Assembly (NCBI GenBank): GCA_025451775.1 | Contig: JANWJU010000032.1 | Location: 1-36,324, forward strand | Direction: 5' to 3' | Source: Terriglobales bacterium | Lineage (GTDB): Bacteria; Acidobacteriota; Terriglobia; Terriglobales; SCQP01 | DNA: 36,324 bases | Part shown: piece by piece, positions 2,621 through 25,009 of the stretch | Numbering within the stretch: position 1 is the first letter of the stretch | Layout: each line of letters begins with the position of its first letter | Program-made: the position numbers and the translations under genes | Notes under the pieces: model-generated | What the model was told of the DNA's origin: nothing | The model's input: the letters and a program-made list of their open reading frames with translations, nothing else | The model's database searches: none

Positions 2621-3721
2621 TTATTGCCGGCGGGCCTGCCGGTTGACGCCCGCCCACGCCCCGGCGGCCTGTGCCGCGCACGCCCCACTCTGCCAATCTC
2701 CCGCCGGAATCCAGACGTAACCCACCAGAGTGGGGAGCGAAAACATCGCTTGCGTGGCGACGGAAACGGCGCCGCATCCGGTTTCCATCGCCAGTGCCGG
2801 GCGGGGCAGGGCGGTGATGATGGGGCCGGGATCCGCGGCGGGGGAGAGCCGCACCGAGTCCACGTCCGGTACGGTCCACGCCAGCCCATCCGCGCCGGGG
2901 TCCAACCCGGCGCCCAGATATAGATGGTTGGGGTCGGCGGCGTGAATGGCGTTGGCCACCACCTGTAGATAACGGACCAGCACCTGCTGGGCAAACGGCG
3001 CGGCGTCGGCCGCAAAGGCCGCGAACTGCCGGGTGTTGGCGGCGGGCACGGTGAGCGCGATAAAATCCTTCGCCGCCTCCCCCCACGCCTGGTCGAGGCG
3101 CCGGATGTCGCTGTGGTAGCGGATGCGGACGTAGTCCTCGGCCCGTTCCCGTCCGGGCGCGCCCTGGGGGAGCTGTAGGTAATAGCTCAGCACCAGCGCC
3201 GCATGCGGCGCCGGATCCCAGGTCAGCCCCTCGTCGCTGAGGTAGCCGATGAGCTGGGAGTCGCCGGCCTCGGGGGCGCACGCCGCCTGCGCCAAGGCCG
3301 CCACTTGGGCAGGGAAATCGGGGGCATAGACATCGAACAGCGCGGTTTGCTGATTCGCCTGCAAGTGCGCCGAGATGCCGAGCGACTCGATGAAGGGTAA
3401 TCCGCGGTGCCAGACGTCGGCATCCGTATCGCCGCCGAGGGCGTTGAACCCCCAGGCGCGCAGCCCGGCGAGGATGGCCTGGGAGCGCCGATCGACGTAG
3501 TCGGGGGCCAAATCGGTGCGGGGCGCGCTGGGCGAGATGAGATGAATGTGATCGGCGGCGAGCAGCGGCATCGGCTCGCCGCCGGGAGCCAGCAGCCGCG
3601 CGGGGCCGGTGCTGGTGGCGAGGCGGTAAAAGCCGGAGGCGCTAGCAGCAGAGTTGCCCGTGGCCAGTTGCCAGTTGCCGGTCAGCAGCACCAAGGCGCC
3701 CAGCAGCAAGGGGCTCGCCAC
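2621..3721 (-). CDS. Secreted glycoside-hydrolase-like (TIM-barrel, agarase/GH42-like) protein
   Basis: ORF with SRSQAILAGLRAWGFNALGGDTD-like, YLSDEGLTWD and DPNHLYLGAGLDPGADGLAWTVPDVDSVRLSP segments. In-frame GTG at 3721 gives a plausible signal peptide (MASPLLLGALVLLTGNWQLATGNSAASA). The ORF track extends to 3931 through a dispersed repeat. Confidence 0.5.
   Translation of the reverse strand: MASPLLLGALVLLTGNWQLATGNSAASASGFYRLATSTGPARLLAPGGEPMPLLAADHIHLISPSAPRTDLAPDYVDRRSQAILAGLRAWGFNALGGDTDADVWHRGLPFIESLGISAHLQANQQTALFDVYAPDFPAQVAALAQAACAPEAGDSQLIGYLSDEGLTWDPAPHAALVLSYYLQLPQGAPGRERAEDYVRIRYHSDIRRLDQAWGEAAKDFIALTVPAANTRQFAAFAADAAPFAQQVLVRYLQVVANAIHAADPNHLYLGAGLDPGADGLAWTVPDVDSVRLSPAADPGPIITALPRPALAMETGCGAVSVATQAMFSLPTLVGYVWIPAGDWQSGACAAQAAGAWAGVNRQARRQ
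3653..3687. repeat. Degenerate heptamer repeat GTTGCCC-GTGGCCA-GTTGCCA-GTTGCCG-GTCAGCA
   Basis: 7-nt periodicity with the same unit (GCCAGTT) as the perfect repeat at 15361. Confidence 0.7.
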
Positions 3722-3818
3722 TCTACGCTGGGTCGCTCCCGCTGGTCGCTTAACGGGGCGCTTCGACTGACGGCGGTGGGTACCCGCGCTGTTGGTGACA
3801 TCTCCAAGCTGCTTCCGT
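3711..3818. repeat. Dispersed repeat family 1, copy B (inverted)
   Basis: Revcomp GGAAGCAGCTTGGAGATGTCACCAACAGCGCGGG...GTCGAAGCGCC...GCGACCAGCGGGAGCGACCCAGCGTAGAGTGGCGAGCC. Confidence 0.75.
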
Positions 3819-7037: not shown

Positions 7038-7083
7038 GGCAGCGAGCGCCCGCTCTGCTCGTGGCGCTTCCAAGCTGCCTCCT
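7038..7083. repeat. Dispersed repeat family 1, left-half copy C
   Basis: Revcomp GGAGGCAGCTTGGAAGCGCCACGAGCAGAGCGGGCG matches the left half of copy A (GGAGGCAGCTAGGAGATGCCACGAGCAGAGCGGGG). Confidence 0.65.
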
Positions 7084-8861: not shown

Positions 8862-9087
8862 CGTTGTTTGCTAGTTAACACTGGATGTGTTTGAGGGGAA
8901 CGGGCGCCGAATTGTTATTCCCGGTTTCATTGAGCAGTTGGCACCTCATTCCTTAAATTCATATTCTTCGTGTTCGCCGCAATAGCGGCCGGGCCCCGAC
9001 ACCATCGAGTGTGCTGGCATTCTGCCACCGGACTTTTAGGTCTTGGCTGACGTCCGCTCGAGGTGTGCGCGGTTTTGGGCTCGCAAC

Positions 9088-9663
9088 ATGAGACAACATT
9101 GGCGTTTGACGCTGATCGTGGTCGTGCTCCTGGGTTTTGGCTGTTGGAAACTGCTGGGCATGGGCGAAAACGTGGGTTATTCGCCGGTGCAGCCGATTCC
9201 ATTCAGCCACAAGCTGCACGCCGGCGATAACCATATTCCATGCCAGTACTGCCACGCGGGCGTGGAACGGTCACGGCTGGCGCCGATTCCGGCGCTCAAC
9301 GTCTGCATGGGCTGCCACGCCGTGGTGGACAACGGCGCTGCTCCCATTAAAGAGGTAGCGGCGGCGTATGCGGCGCTGAAGCCAATCGAATTTGTCCGCG
9401 TCTACGACCTGCCGCAGTTCGTCTACTTCCAGCACCGCTGGCACATCGCCGCCGGCATCACCTGCCAGACCTGCCACGGGCAGGTGCAGAACATGGACCA
9501 GGTCAGCCAGGTGACGCAGTGGACGATGGCGGAGTGCCTCAACTGCCACCGCAACGATAACCTCCTGCCCGGCCCCGGTGACAACGGCTACCACCGCGAC
9601 CCGGCCACCTTCCACGACCGGCCGGCGAACGCGCCGCAGGATTGCAATGTCTGCCATAACTAA
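9088..9663 (+). CDS. actA: Alternative complex III subunit ActA, pentaheme cytochrome c
   Basis: MRQHWRLTLIVVVLLGF TM anchor; five CxxCH motifs (CQYCH, CMGCH, CQTCH, CLNCH, CNVCH); first gene of an act-cox operon. Confidence 0.93.
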   Translation: MRQHWRLTLIVVVLLGFGCWKLLGMGENVGYSPVQPIPFSHKLHAGDNHIPCQYCHAGVERSRLAPIPALNVCMGCHAVVDNGAAPIKEVAAAYAALKPIEFVRVYDLPQFVYFQHRWHIAAGITCQTCHGQVQNMDQVSQVTQWTMAECLNCHRNDNLLPGPGDNGYHRDPATFHDRPANAPQDCNVCHN

Positions 9664-9664
9664 T

Positions 9665-9760
9665 AATGGGCGCGGGCCCCAGCGCGGCTTCGCCGCGCGC
9701 CCCGCTTGTGCTCGCGCAGGCTTGGGGGCCCCCGAGCCCCAAGCCGGCGCTGCGCGGATC
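9665..9760. repeat. Two-hairpin dispersed repeat, copy 1 (intergenic actA-actB)
   Basis: AATGGGCGCGGGCCCCAGCGCGGCTTCGCCGCGCGCCCCGCTTG...GGCTTGGGGGCCCCCGAGCCCCAAGCC; ungapped alignment to the reverse complement of 24560-24645. Confidence 0.85.
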
Positions 9761-9813
9761 GGGCGCGGGCCCCGCCGGGGTGGATCGGGTCTAGGCAAGG
9801 TAGGAACGGCTTC

Positions 9814-12800
9814 ATGAGTAAAAAATATTGGACGACGATGGAGGACCTGCGAGCCGACCCGGAGGTCGAGAAGCTGCGCAAGGAGGAGTTCCGCGCCAAG
9901 CCGCAGGAGTACTTCGACGCCCAGGCCAAGGGCGGCCTCAAATTCGGACGGCGCGACTTCATGAAGTGGTCGACCGGGGCGCTGGCGCTGGCCTCGACCG
10001 CCTGCGCGCGCAAACCCACGCAGAAGATCATCCCCTACGCCCAGCAGCCGCCCGAGATCACCCCCGGCGTGCCGGTCTACTACGCTTCCACCTGCCGCGA
10101 GTGTTCGGCCGCCTGCGGCATCGTGCTGACCACGCATGAGGGCCGGCCCACCAAGGTCGAGGGCAATCCGCTGCATCCGCTCAACCGCGGTACGGTATGT
10201 CCGCGCGGGCAAGCCTCGCTGCACAATCTCTACGATCCCGACCGCCTGCGTTCGCCCGTGCGCTTGGAGCGCGTGCATAGCCTGCGGGGGTTGGTGGGCA
10301 CCGAGGCGCCGCCGCCGGAGCACCTCTGGGTGCCGACCAACGTGTGGAATGAAGCCTGGAACCTGCGCGACAATATCCATCCCATCAAGCGGCAGATGAA
10401 AGCGGTGGAGTGGTTGACGGCGGATCTGGAGATCAGCCACCGGCTGATGGCCGCGGGCAACCGCGCGGTGCTGCTCACCGGCACCATCCACGGCCCGGCG
10501 CGGACGGCGCTGCTGGCGGATTTCCTCGGCATTTACGCGGGAATGCGGCGCGTGGTCTACGACTCCATCAACCAGGATGCGCTGGCCGCCGGCCAGCAGG
10601 CGGCGTACGGCGCCCCAGCGGCGGCCAATACCACGCCCCGCTATTTCTATGACCGCGCCGAGATGGTGGTGACCTTCGGTGACGATCCTATAGGCGCTGG
10701 CATCTCGCGCCAGGAATACTCCTACGGATTTGGGCATCAGCGCAAGGTCCGGGACGCGGAGGCGCCAGGACGGGTGCGCATGTCGCGCGTGGTGGTGTTC
10801 GAGCCCGCGCTGAGCCTGGTCGGCAACAGCGCCGATACGCGCTACCTGATTCCGCCCTCGCAATTGTTGACGGTGGCCATGGGGTTGGCACACCAGTTGG
10901 TGCTGGTGGACAAGCGCTCCGCCTTCGCTAACGATGCCACCGTGGCCAAAGCCCTGCAGGCGTTCGATCCGGCGACGGTGGAGAGCCAGGCCGGACTCAA
11001 ACCCGGCACCCTCGCCACCGTGGCCGGCGAGCTGTGGCAACAGCGCGGCAAGAGCATCGTTCGTGGCGGCGGCATGGCCGGCGCCACCGAAGATGCGGCC
11101 ATGCTGGAGACGGCGGCCGCGTTCCTGAACTCGGTGCTGGGCAACGAGGGCGCGACCGTGGACGGCACGGGCAGCCCCAGCCTGCAGGCCCAGGGCAGCG
11201 ACGCCGCCATGCTGGCGCTGGTCGATGATATGAACCAGGGCAAGGTCGATACCTTGCTGGTGTACGGTTCCAACCCGGCCTATACGCTGCCGGGCGCGGT
11301 GGGCTTTTTGGAGGCGCTGGCCAAGGTGCCGCACGTCTACGTGGTCGCCGACCGCCTGGACGAAACCGCGCAGCTCTCCGACATGGTGCTGCCGCTGTTG
11401 CACGGTTTGGAGAGCTGGGGCGATGCCGAGCCCCAAGCCGGGCTGTACAGCATTGTTCAGCCCACCATCGAGCCGCTGTTCGGCGGCCGCAGCTTCGAGG
11501 ACGTGCTCATCAACTTGGCGTATTTGAACCCGGCCGGCGCGGCCAAGTTCAAGGCGGGTCCGGGGCCGGTAGCCCCGGTGGCGCCGCCCGCACCCGCCGT
11601 CACCGCCGCCGCCGCGGCGGTGACGGCTCCGGCAGTGACGGCTCCCAAGACGGCTAACACCGCCAAGGCCGCGGCCAAACCGGCGGCCGCGCCCGCAACG
11701 GCGGCGGCCGCCGCGGCGGCCTCGCCCGCGCCCTCCTCCGCCCCGGTGGTGGCCGGGCCGACGAGCTTCTACGACTACCTCAAGGCTTATTGGCGTACTC
11801 AGATGTACCCCAAGTACACGCTGGCGGCGAGCTTTGACGACTTCTGGACCGGTCTGTTGCAAGAGGGTGTCTTCGACCCCGATCCAAAGCGGCAGCGGCC
11901 GGGCGCGGCCCGGACGTTTAAGCCGGCGGCGCTGGCGGGTACGCCCGCCCCGGCAACCCCGGCGGCGAAAAACAGCGAGGAACTGGAACTGGCGCTCGTC
12001 GTCAACCCCATGATGGGCGACGGCTGGTGGGCCAACAACGCGCTCTTGCAGGAGATTCCCGATCCTGTCTCCAAAAATTGCTGGGACAATTTCTTCACCA
12101 TCGCCCCCTCCACCGCCAAGCGGCTGGGACTCGAACCCGACGACAAGCGCCAGTACGCGATCGCGGAAGTCACCGTGGGCAGCCAGAAGCTGCAAGCGCC
12201 GGTGTTTGTGCAGGTGGGGGTGAACCCCGGGGTGGCGACCATTGCCGTGGGGTTTGGGCGGGAGTCGGTGGGTCAGATCGGGACCGATATTGGAGCCAAC
12301 GCTTACGCCTTGGGCCAAATCCAATCCGGCCCGAAGCCGGGGCTGTTTTTCTCCGGCGCCAAGGTCAAGCTCACCAAACAGGATGTCCCCAACTATTTGC
12401 TGGCCAGCCCGCAGGGCAACAACTACATCGACTTCAACGAAGATGAGGTGACGCCAGAGACGACGGTGGCGCCGGGCACCGCGCGCGGCGAGCGCATCAT
12501 CCGCGAAACCGATTTGGTGCAGTTGCAGGCCAACCCGCGCGCCGGCAACCCCGAGCAAGAGGCGCCGCTCAGCCTCTGGGACAACGGCGGCCCCAGCGAG
12601 CACGCCTTCCCCAACTACCACTGGGGCATGACCATCGATTTGAACTCCTGCATCGGCTGCAACGCCTGCGTGGCGGCCTGCTATGCGGAGAACAATGTGC
12701 CGGTGGTGGGCAAGGATCAGGTGTGGCGCGGCCGCGACATGGCCTGGATCCGCATCGACCGCTACTTCAGCGGCGACGAGGATAACCCCGACGTCACCCA

Positions 12801-13326
12801 GCAGCCCATGCTCTGCCAGCAGTGCGCCAACGCCGGCTGCGAGAGCGTGTGCCCGGTCATCGCCACCATCACCGACGCCGAAGGCATCAACGTGCAGGTC
12901 TATAACCGCTGCGTGGGCACGCGGTTCTGTTCGAACAATTGCATCTACAAGGTGCGGAAATTCAACTTCTTCAACTACGGCAAGGTGCGCGCCTCGCCGC
13001 TGGAGTTGGCCCTCAACCCCATGGTGACGATGCGCAGCAAGGGGGTCATGGAGAAGTGCAACTTCTGCACGCAGCGCATCCATGCCGCCCATTACAAGGC
13101 CAAGGAGCGGGGCCTGCCAGTCGAGGACGGCGACATCAAGACGGCCTGCCAGCAGACCTGTCCGTCGGAGGCGATCTACTTCGGCAACATGAACGATCCC
13201 AACTCCAAGATGATGCAGGCACGCACCCCGCGCGGCTACCGTGTGCTGGAGGACATGAATTACGAGCCCTCCATCCATTACCTGACCAAGATCCGCAACC
13301 TCGGTCAAGGAACGGACACGGCATGA
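9814..13326 (+). CDS. actB: Alternative complex III subunit ActB (molybdopterin-oxidoreductase-like + ferredoxin domain fusion)
   Basis: Twin-Arg leader [22 protein letters not shown]-terminal Fe-S motifs [44 protein letters not shown]...CQQTCP; operon context. Confidence 0.95.
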
Positions 13327-15359: not shown

Positions 15360-16062
15360 ACCAGTTGCCAGTTGCCAGTTGCCAGTTGCCAGCTGGCGCA
15401 TCCTCGCCGTGGGGTTGGCCGGCATCGCCCTGAGCCTCGCCCTGGCGGGCTGCGCCGGGCCGGGCAAGACCACCCACACCGAGATCGAGTACCAGCCCCA
15501 GATGTACAAGCAAGAGTACGTGCAGGCGCTGGGCACCGACAACGTCAACCCCGATCTGCCCGCCATGCGGACGCCGCCCGCGGGTACGGTGCCGGTGGAC
15601 TACACGCCCTTTCCGCAAGATTCCGACGTCACTGGCCTGGATCAACTGGTGAACCCGCTGCCCACCACGCCGCAGGTGCTGCTTAAGGGCCAGCAGATCT
15701 TCGATACCTACTGCATCGTCTGCCACGGAGCGCGGGCGGACGGGCTGGGCTACATCGTTCCCAAGATGACGCAGCCGCCACCGTTGATTGCGGGTGCGCC
15801 GCTGGAATTCAGCGACGGCCGCATCTTCACCATCATCACCCAGGGACTCGGCAACATGCCCTCCTACCAGACCGAGTTGGAGCCGGCTGAGCGCTGGGCG
15901 GTGATTCATTACGTCCGCGTGCTGCAGCGCGCCGCCAACCCCACGCCCGCCGACCTGGCGCAGGCGCAAAAACAGGGCATGGATTTCTCCCACGATTACC
16001 CGCCCGCCGAGGGACCCACGGGCCCCATCCCCGGCGTGGACGCCATCCCGCACAACCAATGA
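15352..16062 (+). CDS. actE: Alternative complex III subunit ActE, monoheme c-type cytochrome lipoprotein
   Basis: LALAGC lipobox; single CIVCH motif; ...GRIFTIITQGLGNMPSYQTELEPAERWAVIHYVRVLQ. TTG start overlaps the actD end. Confidence 0.88.
   Translation: MRKPVASCQLPVASWRILAVGLAGIALSLALAGCAGPGKTTHTEIEYQPQMYKQEYVQALGTDNVNPDLPAMRTPPAGTVPVDYTPFPQDSDVTGLDQLVNPLPTTPQVLLKGQQIFDTYCIVCHGARADGLGYIVPKMTQPPPLIAGAPLEFSDGRIFTIITQGLGNMPSYQTELEPAERWAVIHYVRVLQRAANPTPADLAQAQKQGMDFSHDYPPAEGPTGPIPGVDAIPHNQ
15361..15390. repeat. Heptanucleotide tandem repeat (CCAGTTG)x4
   Basis: CCAGTTGCCAGTTGCCAGTTGCCAGTTGCC; four perfect 7-mers within the predicted actE start/signal region. Confidence 0.95.
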
Positions 16063-23604: not shown

Positions 23605-24482
23605 GCACGGCGGCTACGCATGGGGGCTGGGCCCAGAACACGCGGCGGACGCTGGCGATGATCAAGTTCGAGCACTCGGTGTTCGCGCTGCCGTTCGCCA
23701 TTCTGGGCGCCATGCTGGCGGCGAATGGCTGGCCGGCTGGGGCGACGCTGGGCTGGATCGTGGTGGCCATGGTGGGGGCGCGCAGCGCCGCCATGACGTT
23801 CAACCGCATCGTGGACCGGCACGTGGATGCCGCCAATCCGCGTACCCGTTCGCGGGAGTTGCCGGCGGGGCGGTTGTCGGTGCAGTTCGCGGTGGGGTTT
23901 CTGGTGGTGAGCGTGGCGGTGTTCGAGATCGCCGCTTGGCGGCTGAACCCGCTGTGCTTGCTTCTGTCGCCGTTGGCGCTAGGCTGGGTGTTTTTCTATT
24001 CCTACACCAAACGATTCACCTGGCTCTCGCACTGGGTGCTGGGCTCGGGGTTGGGCATTGCTCCGGCGGCGGCGTGGATCGCGGTGCGCGGGAGCCTCGC
24101 CCCGCGCATTCTGCTGCTCACGGCGGCGGTGACGCTGTGGGTGGCTGGGTTTGACCTGCTCTACGCCTGCCAGGACGTCGATTTCGACCGCGGCCGCGCC
24201 GACCTGCACTCGGCGCCCAAACGGCTGGGCGTGGCCCGCGCGCTGCGCTGGGCGCAGTACTGCCACTGGGTGATGATGGCGTTTTTGATTTTGCTGCTGC
24301 TGGCCAGCCATCTGGGCCCGCTGGCCTGGATCGGTTTGGCGGTGGTGGCGGCCTTGCTGGTGTACGAACACGCCCTCCTCAAACCAGGCAATTTATCCCG
24401 CATCAATGCGGCCTTTTTCACCGTCAATGGCTATGTGGGGATCCTGCTACTGGTCTTCTGGGGGGCGGCGCTGCTGATATGA
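23601..24482 (+). CDS. UbiA-family prenyltransferase (4-hydroxybenzoate / MqnP-like)
   Basis: MIKFEHSVFALPFAILGA; AMTFNRIVDRHVDAANPRT (NxxxDxxxD); YACQDVDFDR; polytopic. ATGA overlap with vapC. Confidence 0.9.
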   Translation: MSTAATHGGWAQNTRRTLAMIKFEHSVFALPFAILGAMLAANGWPAGATLGWIVVAMVGARSAAMTFNRIVDRHVDAANPRTRSRELPAGRLSVQFAVGFLVVSVAVFEIAAWRLNPLCLLLSPLALGWVFFYSYTKRFTWLSHWVLGSGLGIAPAAAWIAVRGSLAPRILLLTAAVTLWVAGFDLLYACQDVDFDRGRADLHSAPKRLGVARALRWAQYCHWVMMAFLILLLLASHLGPLAWIGLAVVAALLVYEHALLKPGNLSRINAAFFTVNGYVGILLLVFWGAALLI

Positions 24483-25009
24483 AGCTGCTCTTCGCGGTGG
24501 CGCTGGGCTTGAGCCTGGCCGCTGTGGGTCAGAACCCCGCCACCTTTCAGCGCGGCGCCGCGCTGGCTTGGGGCTCTGGGGCTCCCAAGCCAGCGCGAGC
24601 GCAAGCGGGGGGCGCGGCTGCGCCGCGCCAGGCCCCGCGCCCATTTATGAGCTACGAGGTCGAAGTGCCGCCGGTGGCGGGTGCGCCCGCGCAGGCGGCG
24701 CTGGAGGTGAGCCGCATCCGCGGCCGCGCCCATGATGACGTTGGCAACTCCATCGCCACGGTTGGCTTGGGACTGTTCACCGCCGATGCCAACCACCAGT
24801 TCATCACCATGGTGATTACCGACAACCAGGGTAAGTTCGACTTCGGCCAGGCGATTCCAGCGGGCAACTATCGCCTGGTGGCCAAGTACCCCGGCTCCTG
24901 CACCGCCAATATCCCCATCACCGTGAACCGCCGCGCGCACCACAGCACAATCGATCTCACCATGGAGTACCCTGGCCTCGATTTATGCAGTTCCGCCCGG
25001 GTGCGCTGA
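24479..25009 (+). CDS. Secreted carboxypeptidase-regulatory-like (Ig-like fold) protein
   Basis: Signal peptide MKLLFAVALGLSLAAVG; C-terminal AHDDVGNSIATVGLGLFTADANHQFITMVITDNQGKFDFGQAIPAGNYRLVAKYPG. Contains an in-frame repeat element. Confidence 0.7.
   Translation: MKLLFAVALGLSLAAVGQNPATFQRGAALAWGSGAPKPARAQAGGAAAPRQAPRPFMSYEVEVPPVAGAPAQAALEVSRIRGRAHDDVGNSIATVGLGLFTADANHQFITMVITDNQGKFDFGQAIPAGNYRLVAKYPGSCTANIPITVNRRAHHSTIDLTMEYPGLDLCSSARVR
24560..24645. repeat. Two-hairpin dispersed repeat, copy 2 (inverted relative to copy 1, inside a CDS)
   Basis: Reverse complement AATGGGCGCGGGGCCTGGCGCGGCGCAGCCGCGCCCCCCGCTTGCGCTCGCGCTGGCTTGGGAGCCCCAGAGCCCCAAGCCAGCGC aligns ungapped to 9665-9750. Confidence 0.85.

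Follow-up and report, generated by a model that had tools for sequence, protein, structure and literature searches.

The window, that is, the whole stretch of 36,324 nt that was analysed, is contig C32 of G000, a draft genome of 2.86 Mb that is 82% complete. It contains two copies of a GC-rich, hairpin-bearing element, one between an actA-like and an actB-like gene and the other within the ORF of a secreted protein (Table 1). Copy 1 (9665-9755, + strand) and copy 2 (24555-24645, - strand) align without gaps and are identical at 78 of 91 positions (E=5e-26 in a within-window search). In the stretch for which an earlier note on this DNA had estimated about 12 mismatches in some 86 nt there are exactly 12. 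The sequence also confirms the note's observation that the stem of hairpin P2 (GCGCGGC/GCCGCGC) is the same in both copies while the loop is replaced, TTC in copy 1 and GCA in copy 2, and that the second hairpin, P3, has a perfect stem of 13 bp in copy 2; in copy 1 it is a stem of 14 bp with a single A.G mispair. The 3' end of these short-form copies is GGCGCTGCGC. The 13-bp direct repeat said to bracket copy 1 (GGGCGCGGGCCCC; 9668-9680 and 9761-9773, + strand) is real. Since copies elsewhere are arrayed head-to-tail with a period of ~90 nt, its downstream member is read as the opening 13 nt of another, truncated unit.

Table 1 Coordinates of the two element copies in the window, their hairpins and the genes around them.
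Feature	Position	Strand	Remark
actA-like multihaem cytochrome gene, upstream of copy 1	9043..9663	+	stop codon 9661-9663
Copy 1, short form, model positions 1-92, with AT-rich 5' flank	9664..9757	+	between actA stop and actB
Outer stem of P2, GCGGG (9672-9676) / CCCGC (9701-9705)	9672..9705	+	nearly invariant
Hairpin P2, GCGCGGC-TTC-GCCGCGC	9682..9698	+	
Hairpin P3, 14-bp stem 9714-9727 / 9737-9750, one A.G mispair	9714..9750	+	strongly covarying helix
Truncated second unit, start only (GGGCGCGGGCCCC)	9761..9773	+	
actB-like molybdopterin/4Fe-4S gene, downstream of copy 1	9814..13326	+	ATG at 9814
Secreted-protein gene, host ORF of copy 2, C-terminal CarboxypepD_reg domain (just below Pfam cut-off)	24479..25009	+	
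Copy 2, short form, within ORF	24555..24649	-	

Other repeats are present in the window. An inverted pair of 64 nt (1202-1265 / 3712-3775, 80% complementary, 2.4 kb apart) is not a copy of the element according to the profile search, and close to it lies an inverted pair of 34 nt (1143-1176 / 7049-7082, 88% complementary). A head-to-tail run of the heptamer CCAGTTG occupies 15361-15393.

A DNA search of G000 returned 67 matching pieces, and a profile built from the copies gave 50 matches at E<1e-4 in 42 clusters. Within the same genus, G004 (98% complete; 2.31 Mb of sequence searched) has about 60 matches, some of them weak. The element was found in 5/5 genomes of genus g1 and, elsewhere in its Acidobacteria family, in 3/3 of g3 and 1/2 of g5; genera g2, g4 and g6 have only isolated short matches. 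Among 298 genomes drawn from the order, matches at E<=1e-6 occur in nine only, which are the g1, g3 and g5 carriers; an exact core pattern run against the GTDB collection hit 56 stretches, all in five Acidobacteria MAGs. The copies are 82-84% GC, a composition in which hairpins form easily, so we considered whether these GC-rich hairpins are alike by chance, or through local duplication alone, without belonging to a wider family. Matches reaching E=6e-35 on dozens of G000 contigs and in other genomes, set against a single weak partial match (E=1e-4) across the neighbouring family (46 genomes), refute that reading, and we regard its probability as negligible.

Most resolved sites are intergenic and the unit measures 90-200 nt. 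With about 50 hairpin-bearing copies in G000, the element is a REP in the general sense, a short palindrome dispersed in many copies that lie mainly between genes. Mean identity among the copies in G000 and G004 is only ~83%, so its activity in these genomes is not recent. Multi-copy clusters are head-to-tail in 8/8 cases in G000 and 2/2 in G004, in contrast to BIMEs, where REPs are regularly spaced and alternate in orientation (PMC2817692); the BIME-like organisation proposed in the earlier note was thus not borne out.

In full, the element measures about 200 nt (ATTGCTT-GGCGCGGGCCCC...GGCGCGGCCCCCGCG) and its fold comprises several hairpins. This long form (~190-270 nt) is found in g3, g5 and among some G000 and G004 copies, with a 3' domain ending in GGCGCGGCCCCCGCG, and its outer stem, GGCGCGGGCCCCAGCG / CGCTGGGGgCCGCGCC, encloses two hairpins. 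The short form of ~90 nt seen in the window corresponds to the 5' part, comprising the first two hairpins, and is missing most of the 3' arm of the outer stem. Solitary 5' halves and solitary 3' halves are also present in G006. The conserved 5' flank reads ATTGCTT in g3 and ATTGAT[TG] in g1.

Pairing in the stems has been maintained by compensatory change. Across 44 copies, 94.0% of the combinations at the 26 proposed pairs are standard, and there are 47 double-change cells, compared with 9.3 in shuffles and 2-10 with slid partners. Kinship among copies can inflate such counts; the slid controls retain that kinship, yet their counts are far lower. In the larger set of 86 copies, P3 has 82 double-change cells against 20 when shuffled, and P2 has 8 against 0.5. 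Variants of the P2 stem, among them GCGTGGC/GCCACGC and GCCCGGC/GCCGGGC, can be picked out by eye, while its loop varies in both sequence and length. The outer stem GCGGG/CCCGC is too invariant for any covariation measure. Fold energies relative to shuffles are modest for copy 1 (z -1.9 on the + strand, -0.65 on the - strand) and strong for copy 2 (z about -5); the case for structure is carried by the covariation and not by the single-sequence fold. No Rfam 15 covariance model matched the window at its gathering score, and none matched five element loci at E<=1. The proposal in the earlier note of a dispersed REP-like family with a maintained nucleic-acid structure is therefore upheld: the genome does hold further copies, about 50 of them, and changes in the stems are compensated rather than falling equally in stems and loops.

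The location of copy 1, immediately 3' of the actA stop codon and between two co-directional genes, together with the maintained structure, would suit a cis-acting RNA element, an mRNA stabiliser or attenuator selected at its sites and, for example, tuning actA/actB stoichiometry. The distance from the actA stop to the actB start is 150 nt in the window, but three congeners lack the element there: the two genes are 2 nt apart in G004, about 10 nt apart in G003 and nearly contiguous in G002. Copy 1 is thus not a conserved part of the operon. The regulatory idea is weakened by these empty sites and by the intergenic stretch itself, in which no terminator-like or promoter-like match was found. 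The element is also absent at 19/20 G000 clusters with flank matches in G004 (some of these pairings being loose), and copies point either way with respect to the genes beside them. Mispairs in P3, scored on the + strand of the element in 86 copies, are A.C in 65 cases and G.U in 23, the reverse of what RNA of that strand would favour; the excess hints that the wobble pairs may lie on the other strand, and lineage effects could also be its cause. A cis-acting role kept up by selection is, in our view, highly improbable, although this single insertion may affect the mRNA, and the operon position of copy 1 is most likely incidental.

Two clean pairs of filled and empty sites for an element of ~200-250 nt were identified between G011 and G006, GGCTAC^AAGG and GGACG^ATGG. 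At the first, the empty sequence is GGCTACAAGGCTAGG and the filled one GGCTAC-[ATTGCTT...CCCCCGCGA]-AAGGCTAGG; at the second they are GGACGATGGACGG and GAACG-[ATTGCTT...CCCCCGCGA]-ATGGACGG. Since the boundaries at both sites are ambiguous by at most 1-2 nt, there is no ordinary target-site duplication, and the element was precisely inserted or excised at both. The sites are unpolarised, and precise excision in G006 is possible in place of insertion. The fifth base 3' of the terminal CGCG is G in 36/37 ends examined, a count that is not fully independent as overlapping or orthologous loci contribute a few of the ends, and G at +5 is already there in the empty site of both clean pairs.

Other candidate target signals were rejected. 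In g3 the conserved 5' flank is not a target, since ATTGCTT is missing from the empty sites. Direct repeats around the g1 copies show a slight excess of 3-4-nt matches (1/200 shuffles as high), which head-to-tail arrays create by themselves, so they were not taken as duplications. At locus L252 a long-form copy lies at the 5' end of a miaA-like (tRNA dimethylallyltransferase-like) gene in G006 and the element is also present in G013; G011 carries an unrelated stretch of ~60 nt instead, with the remaining flank 99% identical, and the locus was discarded as a clean empty site for that reason. Synteny between locus L260 and contig C453 of G011 breaks at element copies, with 6.5 kb of other sequence at one of them, which suggests rearrangement at the repeats.

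Some copies lie in frame within genes. Copy 2 contributes about 29 extra in-frame codons after the signal-peptide-like start of its host ORF, with the predicted peptide GAALAWGSGAPKPARAQAGGAAAPRQAPR, and the orthologues in G002, G003 and G004 are without the insert. In-frame insertions also add 27 residues to an LpxB-like protein and a head-to-tail dimer of the element to a 3-methyladenine-DNA-glycosylase-like one, and an M48-peptidase-like protein carries another; all are uninterrupted in their G004 orthologues, and these three names come from reading the sequences and not from a family search. Spurious high-GC ORFs spanning copies were left out of the intragenic count. The elements are open in most reading frames, which makes survival within genes easier. 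Rickettsia palindromic elements (RPE), too, are palindromic repeats that sit in frame within genes unrelated to one another. Compared by description and not by alignment, they differ in sequence and phylum from the present element, which is GC-rich and mostly intergenic.

An enzyme that could mobilise the element was sought. The RAYT/Y1 profile PF01797 had no match in G000, G001, G004, G008, G010 or G012, while five control genomes were positive; G000 and G001 are incomplete, so the meaningful case is G004, of which about 2% may be missing. RAYT-type genes are present in G002, G003, G006, G011 and G013. None of 13 Y1_Tnp loci of relatives has an element copy at E<=1, and several have inverted repeats of their own. 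The RAYT link raised in the earlier note is therefore not supported, PF01797 being undetected in three carriers (G000, G001 and G004) and the RAYT-type genes of relatives carrying other repeats. At L063, L059 and L067, Y1/RAYT-type genes of relatives are flanked by their own multi-copy palindromes, a separate family for each gene. Clustering of the ORFs within 1.5 kb of copies revealed no recurring transposase, the inspected clusters being out-of-frame repeat translations or orthologous neighbours. No gene recognisable as a transposase adjoined any of the copies inspected, and no IS with matching ends was seen beside copies. A search with Y2_Tnp (PF04986) gave no match, but its controls were silent too, and it is not evidence of absence.

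Orientation of the copies agrees with replication-type third-position GC skew in 26/29 clear-skew copies of G004, which represent only about 12 regions. Elsewhere the agreement is 13/20 in named loci of five MAGs, where the sequence is shorter, and 6/24 in short G000 loci, an opposite trend. A signal that is strong in G004 and failed in other genomes was not retained as a pillar of the interpretation. Contigs C1, C7, C14 and C16 of G004 have several skew sign changes each, which is unusual for two replichores and reflects either rearrangement or an assembly artefact.

The element is a real, structured, mobile repeat family that is REP/MITE-like yet matches none of the definitions tested for GTAG REP, CGTC REP, BIME and RAYT-linked REP. 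The defining features used were those of RAYT-linked REPs (PMC2817692), REPINs (PMC3116915) and single-strand transposition (PMC6006769), together with those of GTAG and CGTC REPs from PMC3733652, which describes their intragenic copies, states that CGTC REPs lack a transposase and also mentions Acidobacteria with tyrosine transposases that have terminal repeats. One rival reading would make the element a true REP/REPIN system, a conventional REP doublet whose RAYT has been lost or missed in some genomes. Like members of the GTAG superfamily, the element is short, palindromic, high-copy and mostly intergenic, conserves its stems and has occasional in-frame intragenic copies (PMC3733652); the outer stem around two hairpins recalls the 'clover' fold of REPINs (PMC3116915), in which two inverted REPs on either side of a spacer form a single hairpin or a clover, and five of the genomes do have RAYT-type genes. 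A GTAG/GTGG head at the palindrome end is lacking, GTAG or CTAC occurring anywhere in only 5/86 copies, and units are arranged head-to-tail rather than as inverted doublets. The usual REP is 20-40 nt long, compared with 90-200 nt here and a many-hairpin full form of ~200 nt, and none of the 13 Y1_Tnp loci carries the element as a cognate RAYT flanked by its repeat would. PF01797 also went undetected in nearly complete G004 despite about 60 copies. We consider this reading unlikely. CGTC REPs resemble the element in having no dedicated transposase known and in their intragenic insertions, and CGTC is found at the 3' edge of P2 in 58/86 copies. Their unpaired CGTC at one end, stem of 8-9 bp that opens with AT pairs and CCA tail are, however, unlike GCGCGGC/GCCGCGC, which has neither AT first pairs nor a CCA tail, is nested in GCGGG/CCCGC and precedes a second long hairpin; the published repeats are, moreover, mainly head-head dimers.

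Descent from a conventional DDE insertion sequence, as a MITE moved in trans by its parent IS, would account for a short, non-autonomous, high-copy element with modular truncated forms. Bacterial MITEs of 150-400 nt and ~50 copies are known (PMC5896051), and QMITE1/2 of Coxiella, in the same source, are similarly non-autonomous, 100-400 nt long, present in ~50 copies and overlapping ORFs. Such elements have terminal inverted repeats and a duplication, whereas here there are no simple terminal inverted repeats, no direct repeats beyond 1-2 nt at the two clean sites and no matching-end IS beside copies, and this origin is improbable. Palindrome-associated elements derived from IS200/IS605 (PATE type) share the hairpins and the absence of target duplication. 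They differ in that TnpA (Y1) is undetected in three carriers of the element and in that its conserved flank base is 3' and not a fixed 5' tetra- or pentanucleotide. Of the lagging-strand bias expected of such elements, an orientation bias was seen in G004 only.

The reading we prefer, with a probability of roughly 0.68, is a REP/MITE-like mobile DNA repeat, rich in hairpins and non-autonomous, that is peculiar to one uncultured Acidobacteria lineage, probably moved in trans by single-strand transfer and persisting near-neutrally. Its insertion would be precise and leave the target site unduplicated; the moving form would most likely be single-stranded DNA, folded and acted on by a transposase-like enzyme of the HUH/Y1 type or similar. 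The hairpins would be the feature that such an enzyme recognises, and the stems may be maintained because it requires them. Copies would then persist near-neutrally between genes and occasionally within genes when in frame. IS200/IS605-type transposases provide a precedent, as they depend on subterminal secondary structures and use single-stranded DNA of the lagging-strand template (PMC6006769). We infer single-strand insertion as the favoured route; against this preferred reading stand the failure to find a candidate enzyme, an orientation association that was not reproduced beyond G004, the chance of precise excision in G006 at the two clean sites and the mean identity of only ~83% among G000 and G004 copies. 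We hold only tentatively that the family may be a class of its own among mobile hairpin elements that encode no protein, with precise, duplication-free insertion next to a short motif on the 3' side (G at +5) by means of an enzyme unrelated to RAYTs.

Palindromic in-frame insertions in conserved enzymes, such as those in the LpxB-like and DNA-glycosylase-like proteins, were not found reported for Acidobacteria in the literature searched. REP-type repeats that have no transposase of their own are a recognised gap, exemplified by the CGTC REPs (PMC3733652). With filled and empty sites in close relatives, exact boundaries, a motif in the 3' flank and a carrier genome that is nearly complete and in which Y1 is undetected, this family makes the question of how such a repeat moves testable.
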